From: Bacillota bacterium
Lineage (GTDB): Bacteria; Bacillota; Clostridia; Peptostreptococcales; Acidaminobacteraceae
Direction of reading: 5' to 3'
Assembly (NCBI GenBank): GCA_025210655.1
Contig: JAOARG010000028.1
Location: 1-64,000 of the forward strand
Length of the DNA stretch: 64,000 nucleotides
Shown: piece by piece, positions 20,079 through 52,592 of the stretch
Numbering within the stretch: position 1 is the stretch's first letter
Layout: the number at the start of each line of letters is the position of its first letter
Position numbers and translations under genes: made by a program
The notes under the pieces: generated by a model
Seen by the model: only the letters and a program-made list of their open reading frames with translations
Told to the model about the DNA's origin: nothing
The model's database searches: none

Positions 20079-20400
20079 GGGGCGGTGAAACGGGGAAGCG
20101 CACAAGATTACATTTGTGCTAGAAGAAATTTTACTTTGTAAAAGGGGAATGGGAAGAACTAAGAACTTATGCAAAACTTAGACTTTAGAAATAATCATTT
20201 TAACAAACTAATATTTATGTACAAATATGCGAAATGCGGATTCGTACTATGATTAAAAAATCTTAATCACTTCCTTTTCACCTAGACTTTGCCAAAGCAA
20301 AGTTGATTCCCCTAGCACAAAAATTATTGTGCGATTCTCCTTTTCAGCCAGAGGACATTTTTACTATTTATATACAACAAAAAAGTGATAGACACCGCTT
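20079..20400. repeat. Fishbone element with AGGGGAAT/ATTCCCCT linkers
   Basis: Nested complementary linkers are GCGGTG (20082) with CACCGC (20392), AGGGGAAT (20143-20150) with ATTCCCCT (20306-20313), and GGAAG (20152) with CTTCC (20270). Side hairpins are GCACAA/TTGTGC (20100-20119), TTTTAC/GTAAAA (20129-20143), ATATTT/AAATAT (20211-20228), TGATTAA/TTAATCA (20250-20269), ACTTTGC/GCAAAGT (20286-20303) and GCACAA/TTGTGC (20315-20332). The element shares its linker with that at 51266-51620. The rest of the gap to 20581 shows no gene. Confidence 0.82.
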
Positions 20401-47321: not shown

Positions 47322-48398
47322 ATGGAAAAAATATTAGTAGTAGATGATTCTATGACTTACAGGGGAATAATTTCAAGTATACTTGAGGATTATAATCTTG
47401 TAATGGCTGAGGATGGTTCTAAGGCTATTGAAAAGCTTAATAAGTATGATGATATAGATATTATGATACTTGACCTTAAAATGCCTGTTATGGACGGATT
47501 TCAGGTTTTGAGTGAGGTTAAGAAAGAGAGAAAGTTTAAGGATATACCGGTTCTTATTCTTACTAATGTTGATGAGATTGAGAGCGAAATTAGGGGTCTT
47601 GAAGCAGGAGCGGTCGATTATATAAGAAAACCTATTAATGCTGATTCACTTCAAAAGAGAATTGAGGTTCATAGGGATCTTATTAGGGCTCGTAAAGAGA
47701 TTATTAAAAAGAATGAAGAGCTGGAAGAGAGGGTTAAGTATAGGACTAAGCAGCTTGAATTATCTAGGAAGATAACTATTGATGCCCTGACTGGTCTATT
47801 AGAAATAAGGGATGTTGAGTCATCTAATCATACTAGGAGGACTCAATGTATTATGAAAGTTTTAGGTGAAAAGCTTTTAAATGATTCACCTTATTCTAAA
47901 TCACTTAATAAGTTAAAAGTTGAGGAAATATATAAGACATGTCCACTTCATGATATAGGAAAAGTAGGAGTACTTGATTCTATACTTTTAAAACCTGGAA
48001 AACTTACTGATTATGAGTATGAAGAGATGAAGAAACATGTAAAGTATGGTGTAGATGCTCTTATCAAAAATGTTCCTACTGAAGAGGATTTACCTTTAGT
48101 GGGGACTGCACTAAACATTATTGCACATCACCATGAAAAATTTGATGGAACAGGTTATCCCAAAGGACTAAAGGGAACTGATATATCAATAGAAGGAAGA
48201 ATGATGGGGATAGTTGATGTATACGATGCTCTTTCAAGCAAGAGGGTGTATAAAAACGCATTTCCTCATGAAAAATCAATGGAGATAATTATTTCTGAAA
48301 GGGGAAAACACTTTGACCCTATTATTGTTGATGCATTCATTAAAATTCAGGATGATGTGATCAAAATAATAAAGGAATATGGTGCAGATGATGAATAG
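47322..48398 (+). CDS. Response regulator with HD-GYP output
   Basis: The 358-residue protein has a receiver domain (1-120) with D8, D9 and phosphorylation site D51 in IMILDLKMPVMDG, a coiled coil (about 125-155), then an HD-GYP domain with HTRRTQ, LHDIGKVG, HHHEKFDGTGYP and DVYDALSS. Cyclic-di-GMP phosphodiesterase activity controlled by phosphorylation is inferred. The next gene is a hybrid histidine kinase that overlaps it, so the pair forms one relay. Confidence 0.92.
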   Translation: MEKILVVDDSMTYRGIISSILEDYNLVMAEDGSKAIEKLNKYDDIDIMILDLKMPVMDGFQVLSEVKKERKFKDIPVLILTNVDEIESEIRGLEAGAVDYIRKPINADSLQKRIEVHRDLIRARKEIIKKNEELEERVKYRTKQLELSRKITIDALTGLLEIRDVESSNHTRRTQCIMKVLGEKLLNDSPYSKSLNKLKVEEIYKTCPLHDIGKVGVLDSILLKPGKLTDYEYEEMKKHVKYGVDALIKNVPTEEDLPLVGTALNIIAHHHEKFDGTGYPKGLKGTDISIEGRMMGIVDVYDALSSKRVYKNAFPHEKSMEIIISERGKHFDPIIVDAFIKIQDDVIKIIKEYGADDE

Positions 48399-51261
48399 AA
48401 AGAAAATTATCAGCCTTTTACTTGCTATGGTTATGTTGCTTCTTAATGGATTAGCAGTATTTGCCTCATCGGAAAGTATATTTTCTTTAGAAGAGCTTGA
48501 GTTTATTAAGGACAATCCAGTAATTAAGATAGGTATTGACCCAAATTTTGCACCCTTTGAATTTTTTGACTCAAAGGGTGATTACCAAGGATTAAGTAAA
48601 GAGTATCTCCAAAATATAGAGGAAATCTCAGGTTTGAAATTTGAGATATATGGAAATGAAAACTGGGAAAGTACATATGAAAGGGCAGTCAATGGAGAGT
48701 TAGATATGCTCCCTTGTATATCGATGACAAAGGAAAGGCAGGATCTATTTGATTTTTCTGATCCATACTATACTTTCCAAAGAGTTATAGTTATCAATAA
48801 TGAAAATGACGAAATAAAATCTAGAAAAGATCTCTTATATCTCAAGGTAGCTGTTCAAAAAAATAGTTCCCATGAAAGCTATCTAGGTGAAAAGGAAAAG
48901 TTTCAGCTAAATATTTATGATAATGTTGTTGAGGCACTAGAAGCAGTTGCAATTGGTGAGGAAAAAGCCTTTATAGGAAATATGGCTACAACTCAGTATA
49001 TAGTCAAAAATAAAGGTATAGCTAATCTTAAGTATGTTAAGTATGAAGCTAAAGATGAAAGCCATCTTCATTTTGCTGTAAGGAAAGGGATGAGTTCCCT
49101 TACATCTATATTAAATAAATCATTAGTCCAAATATCCGAAGCTGAAAAACTTAGAATTCAGAATAAGTGGATAGGTATGGAGAAGGAAGTTGATTATTCT
49201 TGGATAATTAAATTGATTGTGATTATTGTCATATTAGCTATTATTATATTTTCTGTGTCGACATATTGGATAATGAAGCTAAAAAGAGAAATAAAGAAGC
49301 GTGAGGAAATACAAGAAGAGTTAATCATTGCTACTGAAGATGCTAAGAGGGCAAATGAAGTGAAATCTGATTTTCTTGCTAGAATGTCCCATGAAATTAG
49401 AACACCCCTCAATGGCATAAGCGGTATGGCATTTTTACTAGGCAATACGGATCTTGATTATAAGCAAAGGGCACATTTAGAGAGGATAAAACAAGCATCT
49501 GATACTATGTTAGGGATAATAAATGATATATTAGATTTTTCAAAAGTAGAAGCAGGTAAGATAGATATTGATCATAGTCCTGTAAACTTAGATGAACTAA
49601 TAAAAAATGTACTAAATATAGTTGCATTTAAGATAGAAGAGAAGGGTTTAGATTTTACTTTAGTAAGGGATCCTAAGCTTCCTAATTATTTCATTAGTGA
49701 TGCAAAAAGAATTCAGCAAGTATTTCTTAATATTATCAATAATGGAGTAAAATTTACCAGTGAAGGTGGAATTACATTAAGTGCTAAGCAAAAGGGCTGT
49801 GAAGGTGATATTTGTTTGGTGGAATTTTCCATTAAAGATACTGGAATAGGAATTGCAAAGGAAAATATGGATAAGCTTTTTCAGCCATTTATTCAGGAAG
49901 ATTCAAGTATTACGAGACGGTTTGGAGGAACGGGTCTCGGACTTTCAATATCGAAAAATATTGTAGAAATAATGGGGGGAGAAATAAAGGTTGAAAGTGA
50001 AGTGGGTAGTGGTACAGAGTTTATTATATCTCTTCCACTAAAACATGATGAAGAGAAGGAAGAGATTGAAAAAAGTAGCAATAAGGCATTTGATGGGCTT
50101 AAGGCAATAATTCTTGATAAAACAAGTACAGAGCTAAGTGTTACAAATGCATACCTTAGTTCCTTTGGAATTAAATCAGAACTTACCACATCAACAGAAC
50201 ACATTCTTAAAATACTTGATATAAATGAAAAGAGTGGGGCTAAAGCCTATGATTTATTGGTCATTGATTATGATACACCTGAAATGGGACTTGAAGAGTT
50301 CCATAGGATAATTGATGAAGATACCAATTTAAGCAAACAACCTAAGATGCTATTTATTCTTCCATTCCTTAGGGATGATATGTCTACCTCAATAGATAGT
50401 AATCATATGTACATTACAAAGCCAATTTTTCCATCAATACTTCATGATTCACTTATGTATTTATTTGAATCCAAGGTTTTAAAGGAGAAGAAGGATATGA
50501 TAATAAAAGAAGACGATATTCAAAGAGAATCATTTGGTCAAGAAAACAAGGTACTTATAGTTGAAGATAATAAAACCAATCAGTTAATAGCAAAGTCACT
50601 TCTTGAAGAAGAAGGCATAAGTGTACTTTTAGCAGATAATGGTGAAATAGGTGTGAAAACTTATGAAGAGAAGAAAGACGAAATAAGTCTTATTTTAATG
50701 GATCTTCATATGCCTGTGATGGACGGTTATCAGGCAACCAAATCAATAAGATCAAATGATACAGATATTTCTATAGTTGCCCTTACAGCAGATGCAATAA
50801 CTGGTGTAGAAGAAAAATGTAGGGCCTATGGTTTTTCATATTTCCTTAGTAAACCATTCGTACCAGAACAGTTTATAAAATTGGTTAAAGATATTATTAT
50901 AGATACAAAAACTAAAGATAAAGACAAAGAAATACTTTGGGATAAAGAGTTAGGACTAAAAATGTTAGGAGGAAATGCCAAACTCTTTAAAGAAGTAATC
51001 AATCTATATTTGATAGAAAACCAAAATACCGAGATGGAATTGAAGTACTTAGTAGATAATAATAAATTTGAAGAAGCCAGAGACCTTGTACACAAATTAA
51101 AAAGCTCCACAGGATCAATAGGAGCAAGACCGGTACAAAATCTAGCTAAACAGCTACAAGAAGCCTTTGATAGTAATGATGACAAAGAGATAGAAGCACT
51201 ATATCCACACTTTATGGATGTGTTTTCTAAGTTGATGAAGGAGTTGAAGGATGAAATATAA
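48388..51261 (+). CDS. Hybrid histidine kinase with solute-binding sensor, two REC and HPt
   Basis: The protein of about 957 residues has a signal peptide, a SBP_bac_3 sensor (about 35-255; IGIDPNFAPFEFFDSKGDYQ), a membrane helix (about 272-297), a phosphoacceptor domain with H335 in MSHEIRTPLNG, an ATPase domain (INNGVKFTS, DTGIGI, GGTGLGLSI), a degenerate receiver (VIDYDTPEMG), a second receiver with D772 in LILMDLHMPVMDG and a C-terminal HPt with H902 in LVHKLKSSTG. The path H335, D772, H902 would end on the REC/HD-GYP protein encoded just upstream, with which it overlaps. The sensor type suggests an amino acid or similar ligand. The start is uncertain (48379, 48388 or 48391). Confidence 0.92.
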   Translation: MMNRKKIISLLLAMVMLLLNGLAVFASSESIFSLEELEFIKDNPVIKIGIDPNFAPFEFFDSKGDYQGLSKEYLQNIEEISGLKFEIYGNENWESTYERAVNGELDMLPCISMTKERQDLFDFSDPYYTFQRVIVINNENDEIKSRKDLLYLKVAVQKNSSHESYLGEKEKFQLNIYDNVVEALEAVAIGEEKAFIGNMATTQYIVKNKGIANLKYVKYEAKDESHLHFAVRKGMSSLTSILNKSLVQISEAEKLRIQNKWIGMEKEVDYSWIIKLIVIIVILAIIIFSVSTYWIMKLKREIKKREEIQEELIIATEDAKRANEVKSDFLARMSHEIRTPLNGISGMAFLLGNTDLDYKQRAHLERIKQASDTMLGIINDILDFSKVEAGKIDIDHSPVNLDELIKNVLNIVAFKIEEKGLDFTLVRDPKLPNYFISDAKRIQQVFLNIINNGVKFTSEGGITLSAKQKGCEGDICLVEFSIKDTGIGIAKENMDKLFQPFIQEDSSITRRFGGTGLGLSISKNIVEIMGGEIKVESEVGSGTEFIISLPLKHDEEKEEIEKSSNKAFDGLKAIILDKTSTELSVTNAYLSSFGIKSELTTSTEHILKILDINEKSGAKAYDLLVIDYDTPEMGLEEFHRIIDEDTNLSKQPKMLFILPFLRDDMSTSIDSNHMYITKPIFPSILHDSLMYLFESKVLKEKKDMIIKEDDIQRESFGQENKVLIVEDNKTNQLIAKSLLEEEGISVLLADNGEIGVKTYEEKKDEISLILMDLHMPVMDGYQATKSIRSNDTDISIVALTADAITGVEEKCRAYGFSYFLSKPFVPEQFIKLVKDIIIDTKTKDKDKEILWDKELGLKMLGGNAKLFKEVINLYLIENQNTEMELKYLVDNNKFEEARDLVHKLKSSTGSIGARPVQNLAKQLQEAFDSNDDKEIEALYPHFMDVFSKLMKELKDEI

Positions 51262-51265
51262 ATGA

Positions 51266-51620
51266 CTGGGTGGAGTGTTTTACTAGATGTAAAACGGTAG
51301 TGTACGCGCCTGAGAGGCTTGTGGTGGTTAGCTTCTAGGTGAAATGGGGAATCGCACGTTACTTTGTAAGTACTAGGGGGAATAAAACTAATAAATAAGT
51401 TTAGGGGAAAAGGAAAACATAAGATCTCTTAAAGGTCTTACGTTCTTCCTGTTCCCCTAAATTTTTTTCGAAAATTGATTCTTCTAGTACGATAAAATAG
51501 CGTACGATTCCCCTAAGAATTACTGCCAAACCACCGCTTGCGATAGCAAGCTCACTACCATAAGTCACAAGGTGACGAGTACACTACCATTTTTTCTAAA
51601 GGAAAAATACACCACCCATT
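51266..51620. repeat. Best-formed fishbone element (AGGGGAAT linkers)
   Basis: Nested linker pairs, outside to inside: GGGTGG (51268) with CCACCC (51612); GGTAGTGTAC (51296-51305) with GTACACTACC (51579-51588), 10 of 10; GGTGGTT (51323) with AACCACC (51529); GGGGAATCG (51346-51354) with CGATTCCCC (51505-51513), 9 of 9; AGGGGAAAAGGA (51403-51414) with TCCTGTTCCCCT (51447-51458), 11 of 12. Side hairpins include GTTTTAC/GTAAAAC (51277-51295), GCCT/AGGC, TTAC/GTAA, AAACT/AGTTT, GTACG/CGTAC, GCTTGC/GCAAGC (51536-51551) and GTCAC/GTGAC (51564-51576). The apex is TAAGATC with GGTCTTA. It fills the gap between two convergent genes. Confidence 0.9.
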
Positions 51621-52592
51621 CTACCAACTAGTTAAATCCTTAAAATCAGCCCTATACACTCCACTTTCAAATACCGGAGCCTTAAATTTCCACTTCCTGG
51701 TTCCGCTAATGGATTCGATAGTATCACTTGAAGTAGCAACAACATATCCTGCTTCATCAAATAAATCAAAACTTATTGTAACCATTTTGATATCTTCTTT
51801 TGAAAGATTTTCAACAACACCGGTTAAATAAACTACATTATCGATTTTTTCAAACTGGAAATCCCAAAGTACTAGCCCGTTTTCAGTTCTTGCAACATGG
51901 GCTGGGAGATTAGCCATACTACTTTGATTTTCATTATATTCTACTTGAGTACTATCAAAATCGTATGATGCAATGACTTCGTTATTTCTGCTCATTACCT
52001 CTACAGTAGCAATAAATTCCGTTTCTATTTCATCAAAAAAAGTTGAAACTATACCATCTGACTGAGGGATTATTTCAATAACCTGTGCAAGTCTATCAGG
52101 TAGAGGATTTATTACATTTCCATCTACATCAACTAGTCTTATGGCTGTTTCCCTAATTTTCACAGTTCTTTTCCCCGTATTGCTAATAGTAGTATTTAGG
52201 GTAAAAGCACCTGCTTCTAAAGATGCAGAGTTAAAATTAGCTCTTATACTTATTTTATTTTGTTCATCTCTTTCTTTCTTAGACTCAGTTTTTTTCTTTT
52301 CCTCGGCCTTTCGAATTTCTTCCTTTTTCTTTACTTCATCAGCTTTTCTTTTTTTCTCTACTTCTTTTTCTTTTTCGGCTTTTTTAGCTTCTTCGTCTTT
52401 TTTAATTTCCTCTCTGACCTGAGCTTCAATTTCTTTTCTGATTTCTTCCTCAGTTTTTTCTTTTTCGATTGGCACTTCAGAAGAGCCTTCCTGAATCTTG
52501 TTAGAAGAAGTATCATTGTTACTTCCACAGCCAGTAAAAAGTAATGAAAGGATCATCATGGATATAATTAATTTGATATATTTTGATTTCAT
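51621..52592 (-). CDS. Lipoprotein with charged coiled coil and FxLYD-like domain
   Basis: The 323-residue protein has a lipoprotein signal with lipobox LFTGC (C22). A highly charged Lys/Glu helix or coil covers about 40-115. Two beta domains follow; the second (about 240-323; VVYLTGVVENLSKEDIKMVTI, ISFDLFDEAGYVV) resembles FxLYD, a surface domain of unknown binding partner. It lies convergent to the hybrid kinase gene. A role at the cell surface is all that can be said. Confidence 0.75.
   Translation of the reverse strand: MKSKYIKLIISMMILSLLFTGCGSNNDTSSNKIQEGSSEVPIEKEKTEEEIRKEIEAQVREEIKKDEEAKKAEKEKEVEKKRKADEVKKKEEIRKAEEKKKTESKKERDEQNKISIRANFNSASLEAGAFTLNTTISNTGKRTVKIRETAIRLVDVDGNVINPLPDRLAQVIEIIPQSDGIVSTFFDEIETEFIATVEVMSRNNEVIASYDFDSTQVEYNENQSSMANLPAHVARTENGLVLWDFQFEKIDNVVYLTGVVENLSKEDIKMVTISFDLFDEAGYVVATSSDTIESISGTRKWKFKAPVFESGVYRADFKDLTSW

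Follow-up and report, generated by a model that had tools for sequence, protein, structure and literature searches.

A dispersed family of many-branched, mosaic palindromic repeats in the intergenic regions of a Clostridia genome

The window, which is the whole stretch of DNA analyzed here, comprises positions 1 to 64,000 of contig JAOARG010000028.1 in assembly GCA_025210655.1 of a Bacillota bacterium (Acidaminobacteraceae). A gene for a 960-amino-acid hybrid sensor histidine kinase (SBP_bac_3, HisKA, HATPase, receiver and Hpt domains) lies at 48379-51261 on the plus strand, and a convergent gene for a 323-amino-acid putative lipoprotein with no Pfam match lies at 51621-52592 on the minus strand. 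Since the histidine kinase frame closes with a stop codon ending at 51261 and the stop codon of the lipoprotein gene occupies 51621-51623, the element between them (51264-51621, assigned to neither strand) adjoins both and fills the entire gap, as stated in a preliminary description that likened its plan to a fishbone. Folded as RNA, positions 51262-51622 reach -150.7 kcal/mol on the plus strand (z -12.4) and -140.3 kcal/mol on the minus strand (z -11.9), and none of 100 dinucleotide shuffles folds as well, which bears out the earlier statement that the order is far beyond chance. When the same positions are folded as single-stranded DNA, z is -10.4. A scan of 51000-51900 gave no canonical intrinsic terminator and the only Rfam match in the window was to a tRNA elsewhere in it, in agreement with the description's view that the element is neither a terminator, a tRNA nor a known riboswitch.

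The element consists of an outer module, A, surrounding an inner module, B, and two covariance models, R1 for the B core and R2 for the A arm, were used to find further copies. The left arm of module A (51264-51333, plus strand) contains the linkers TGGGTGGAGTGT, GGTAGTGTAC and TGGTGGTTAG and the hairpins, or ribs, at 51277-51295 and 51308-51318, as placed by an R2 match at 51269-51352 and by the fold. Its right arm (51529-51616, minus strand; R2 match, E 5.6e-18) has ribs at 51536-51551, 51564-51576 and 51589-51608 and the linkers CTCACTACCA, GTACACTACC and TACACCACCC. Module B (51338-51520, assigned to neither strand) has AGGGGAAT linkers, two ribs per arm and an apical arm, and it is matched by R1 on both strands (E 1e-30 on the plus strand and 5.8e-28 on the minus strand). 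The linkers pair in nested order: TGGGTGGAGTGTTTT (51267-51281) with AAAATACACCACCCA (51604-51618) outermost, then GGTAGTGTAC (51296-51305) with GTACACTACC (51579-51588), both read on the plus strand and perfect over 10 bases, then TGGTGGTTAG (51322-51331) imperfectly with 51552-51561. In module B, GGGGAATCG (51346-51354) pairs perfectly over 9 bases with CGATTCCCC (51505-51513), both on the plus strand, and an inverted repeat and the fold place the inner pair, TTTAGGGGAAAAGGAA (51400-51415) with TTCCTGTTCCCCTAAA (51446-51461), also on the plus strand, around the apical arm at 51418-51442. On the plus strand, the B ribs are rib 1 left (51354-51375), which is imperfect in this copy and is recognized from alignment and covariation, and three that the fold indicates as well: rib 2 left (51385-51402, AAACT..AGTTT), rib 2 right (51461-51477) and rib 1 right (51487-51505, GTACG..CGTAC). 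The nested linkers and the hairpins on both arms are thus present in the sequence as first described, with two corrections to the fishbone plan: the third left rib of module A is degraded in this copy, and the pairing of the backbone, although real in the sequence, is not backed by covariation across the family. A second, degenerate B-type copy (20084-20348, assigned to neither strand; R1 match, E 2.4e-21) lies between tandem genes in the same window.

The element belongs to a dispersed family. Searching the organism's own genome (82 contigs, 3.94 Mb) with blastn turned up 77 matches at about 40 places, R2 gave 66 matches, and the merged R1 and R2 matches define at least about 88 sites in this Clostridia genome. 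Each copy consists of two opposed arrays of units, a unit being a conserved G-rich linker and a variable hairpin. Module A, with GGTGGTG linkers, often surrounds module B, with AGGGGAAT linkers. The A linkers are GGTGGTGTA, GGTAGTGTAC, GGTGGTGAG and GGTGGTTAGG, and each A arm carries three hairpins; module B, of about 180-195 bp, has the linkers AAAAGGGGAATC, TAGGGGAATC and TAGGGGAAAAGGAAGAAC, two hairpins per arm and the apical arm, and one of its sides is A-rich and the other T-rich. The modules occur alone (A at C71:55552; B at C30:67500 and C79:16420) and combined (the window copy, C50:114837 and C82:20243), which counts for reading the family as a mosaic repeat. In some copies ribs are swapped, with GTTTTGTATACAAAAC or TTCAAAGC..GCTTTGAA replacing GCACAAG.., and others have extra outer linkers such as GCCTAATGTTGTT. 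Terminal inverted repeats are present (TTGGGTGG..CCACCCAA and GCTGAAAAG..CTTTTCAGC ends), and many copies are decayed or truncated. Contigs C1, C45, C14, C8, C64, C15 and C75 each have an end no more than a few hundred bases from a copy, probably because the hairpin repeats interrupted the assembly.

Outside this genome the family was not found. Neither blastn in 40 relatives nor R1 and R2 in 40 genomes from its taxonomic family detected a copy. The exact gapped pattern was missing from viral contigs and from 84,980 other genomes, scans that may leave out records of the window's own genome, and nothing convincing with the same architecture in other sequences appeared in about 370 kb from 11 relatives. 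Open-access papers yielded no described family with such a plan. In one relative of the same family (G012, L232:3829-4229), short hairpins of another kind, AAATCACCGAAGGTGATTT, are arrayed in tandem with GGGTCGCACCGCAGTAAATGGGAGTGTG as the spacer.

The preliminary description had proposed a check for conserved pairing in homologous gaps; applied to the copies within the genome, it gives strong support for conserved pairing in the ribs. The four B rib helices (26 copies, 24 rib pairs) are 93.5% paired and contain 82 double-change cells compared with 20.4 in shuffled alignments (0 of 500 shuffles), and for the two A rib helices, compared over 27 arms, pairing is 97.6% and double changes number 65, compared with 15.8. 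The alternative in which ribs of opposite arms pair to give a long hairpin has 19 double changes versus 22.1 when shuffled, and Watson-Crick pairing is 93-94% within ribs versus 66-74% for the same bases between arms. The ribs are therefore kept as ribs, and one long hairpin or a plain palindrome is ruled out since the ribs of the two arms do not covary with each other. The conserved pairing does not extend to covariation of the backbone, whose 34 pairs are 88.3% paired with 6 double changes versus 5.1 shuffled; the backbone pairs because the same conserved linkers stand in inverted copies. Although the shuffles leave the kinship of the copies in place, slid-partner controls and the contrast among ribs, backbone and long hairpin on one alignment do not have that weakness. 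In the linkers, mean pairwise identity reaches 0.85 for B and 0.90 for A; the rib stems stand at 0.74 (B) and 0.71 (A), and the rib loops at 0.49. The linkers are thus conserved in sequence and the ribs in structure, which makes linker plus hairpin the repeated unit. That the linkers change so much more slowly argues that something may read them, or may have done so until recently.

The pairing appears to be maintained in DNA. G-T occupies 4 and A-C 10 of 594 rib cells in module B, and each occupies 3 of 344 in module A; G-T being no commoner than A-C, wobble is favored on neither strand. Folding energy of the sense strand minus that of the antisense strand averages -0.1 kcal/mol over 62 copies between tandem genes (p 0.96), and the B consensus is nearly identical to its own reverse complement. 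Covarying ribs that are almost purely Watson-Crick, together with the lack of sense-strand bias, indicate that pairing is kept at the DNA level, and the family looks like a home-grown repeat rather than an RNA gene.

The reading favored here, with somewhat better than even confidence, is that the family is a lineage-specific intergenic palindromic DNA repeat of the REP/BIME/BOX kind, non-autonomous and mobile, or formerly mobile, as folded DNA. A non-autonomous mobile element was one of the guesses in the preliminary description, and of those guesses it is the one that the dispersed family fits best. The nearest relative lies within 20 kb for 13 of 70 B copies, a count that leaves out tandem neighbors, when 0.86 are expected and the maximum in 2000 permutations is 6. 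Neighboring pairs such as C4:79573/80520, C42:53503/57164 and C30:12219/14210 are about 90-95% alike across intervening genes. Such clustering of similar copies supports this reading, as do the number of sites, the absence from the other genomes searched, the conserved linkers, the strand-neutral covariation of the ribs and the placement at gene 3' ends described below. Against it, a search for target-site duplications at 14 A-ended and 6 B-ended copies did no better than with shuffled flanks, the 20 proteins encoded between or beside neighboring copies include no transposase, and the Y1 transposase genes of the genome have no adjacent fishbone. Nor was an autonomous copy found among the matches to the 12-base A end outside known copies, those that were read being coding sequence or chance-like. 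With a mean identity of about 50%, most copies are old, so that mobility at present is no more than a conjecture.

Under this reading, the functional form would be folded single-stranded or extruded DNA, in which linker plus hairpin may be recognized by a nuclease or transposase that reads hairpins and acts in trans. Copies would spread mainly to nearby sites and be tolerated at gene 3' ends, and template switching during replication may repair the ribs. Mobility as folded DNA is on balance the best-supported mechanism, with a host role, a relic and a Y1-driven REP as the other candidates; the likelihoods assigned to these explanations are not mutually exclusive. A stronger proposal, to be entertained only tentatively, is that the family represents a new class of mobile DNA, whose active form would be a multi-branched folded strand, with four-way junctions in a row and hairpins to either side, and in which a putative hairpin-recognizing enzyme reads the repeated linker-plus-hairpin sites and produces local spread with no target duplication.

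With genes taken as mechanical open reading frames, all copies are intergenic. Copies avoid divergent gaps (1 of 74 copy-bearing gaps versus 48 of 156 other gaps of at least 100 bp; p 2e-8) and favor convergent ones (18 of 74 versus 15 of 156; p 0.0045). Many copies are tight against the stop codon of the upstream gene or even share a few bases with it, and several that begin within 10 nt of a stop codon or overlap one fill convergent gaps entirely. One copy directly follows groEL (L035), and several B copies lie directly 3' of apparent ordinary terminators. A 140-amino-acid protein with an HNH endonuclease domain (L027:4658-5080, contig C4) has its stop codon inside the end of a B copy, and a truncated A copy (L038, C46:52986-53122) lies beside a gene for a Y-family DNA polymerase. 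Some BIMEs act between genes as host elements at 3' ends, and it is conceivable, though unlikely, that the host has adopted these repeats as bidirectional terminators or attenuators, protectors of mRNA 3' ends, or binding sites for gyrase or a nucleoid protein. The strong 3'-end placement with convergent enrichment, the stop-hugging copies, the sequence conservation of the linkers and the A-rich and T-rich sides of module B are all consistent with such a role. The 3' bias, however, is predicted both by tolerance of insertions and by a function at 3' ends, and selection against promoter damage would also produce it. The negative terminator scan of this element, the copies that follow apparent ordinary terminators, the absence of sense-strand bias, the sporadic placement and the many decayed copies also speak against a host role.

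Alternatively, the repeats could be a passive relic, an old and inactive family whose ribs look conserved only because template switching has re-perfected small hairpins. Replication template switching, which is reported both to form hairpin stems and to mend them (PMC8794818), can also yield double changes without intermediates, so that rib covariation alone is no proof of selection. Template switching predicts the observed double changes in which G-T and A-C intermediates are nearly absent (PMC8794818), and the copies are old and many are truncated. Passive decay of a single ancestor, however, is not expected to leave linkers 85-90% identical beside loops at 49%, or neighboring copies that are 90-96% identical, and the relic explanation is accordingly judged improbable.

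The genome encodes three Y1 transposases, and these RAYT-like enzymes might have mobilized the family as REP-type elements. Among known plans, that of REP comes nearest: a conserved head adjoins a hairpin in which complementary changes preserve the pairing (PMC2817692), and linker plus covarying rib follows it; the lack of target duplication also fits. No fishbone unit, however, lies within 1.5 kb of any of the three genes, and one of them has an unrelated repeat as its flank, which leaves mobilization by Y1 enzymes distinctly improbable. The flanking repeat, about 76 bp long (AAAGGATGCTTTTTGCTGAAGCAAAACC...TTAGCT), occurs as direct copies around the gene for a 176-amino-acid Y1 protein (L149; C71:27576, 27763 and 28531), and the two look like a REP-transposase system of their own. 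It is also found at C70:88361 and 88437 (in tandem) and at C11:25196, and it adjoins three fishbones, on C70, C11 and C1. The two larger Y1 genes (L150 and L151, frames of about 303 and 311 amino acids) have C-terminal extensions and no obvious flanking repeats. Finally, a structured non-coding RNA or riboregulator, which the preliminary description had also offered and which very strong folding, covariation and adjoining 3' ends would suit, is rejected as scarcely credible on strand symmetry, given nearly equal folding of both strands, no sense bias at 62 tandem sites, no G-U excess, a near two-fold symmetric consensus, no Rfam match and a backbone that does not covary.

This last case indicates that strong folding and covariation need not mean RNA and that strand symmetry also needs testing. 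The family provides a large sample within one genome of hairpins that evolve under a DNA-level pairing constraint, with wobble intermediates nearly absent, next to linkers whose sequence is conserved. It makes testable whether such hairpins are maintained by template switching or by selection, and how intergenic palindromic repeats spread without a matching transposase.

Several known repeats share part of this plan. Like DDE-type MITEs, the fishbones have terminal inverted repeats, but they show no target-site duplication, and no full-length element with matching ends was found among the sites examined. ERIC, Correia/NEMIS, RUP and other MITE-like palindromes are intergenic, imperfect, roughly 100-200 bp long and presumed to be non-autonomous; drawings of palindromes of the ERIC/Correia/RUP type usually show one main hairpin, and several of these palindromes have target duplications or transposase-matched ends. 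The fishbone is likewise an intergenic, imperfect and presumably non-autonomous palindrome, but it differs from ERIC, Correia/NEMIS and RUP in its many side hairpins and lack of target duplication. Enterobacterial BIMEs and RIBs sit at the 3' ends of genes, as do the fishbone copies. Intergenic location, many copies, a conserved head with a pairing-kept hairpin, inverted pairs and mosaic assembly are shared with REP/BIME (PMC2817692, PMC3733652). Unlike REP/BIME, the fishbones form units of 180-390 bp in which each arm has its two to three hairpins nested in mirror order. The flanked transposase gene that defines REP with RAYT was not seen, as none of the three Y1 genes stands between inverted fishbone repeats, and the linkers are longer and appear not to be simply of the GTAG/GTGG or CGTC type (the A linkers contain GGTAG or GGTGG, the B linkers AGGGGAAT). 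BOX of Streptococcus pneumoniae, also in the Firmicutes, is a modular mosaic of interchangeable hairpin modules that is mostly intergenic (PMC3049150); it has the form boxA-boxB(n)-boxC with polarity, whereas the fishbone consensus is nearly two-fold symmetric and its modules are nested rather than tandem. The fishbone family is a genuine lineage-restricted mosaic palindromic repeat, unusually many-branched, known in kind and new in architecture.
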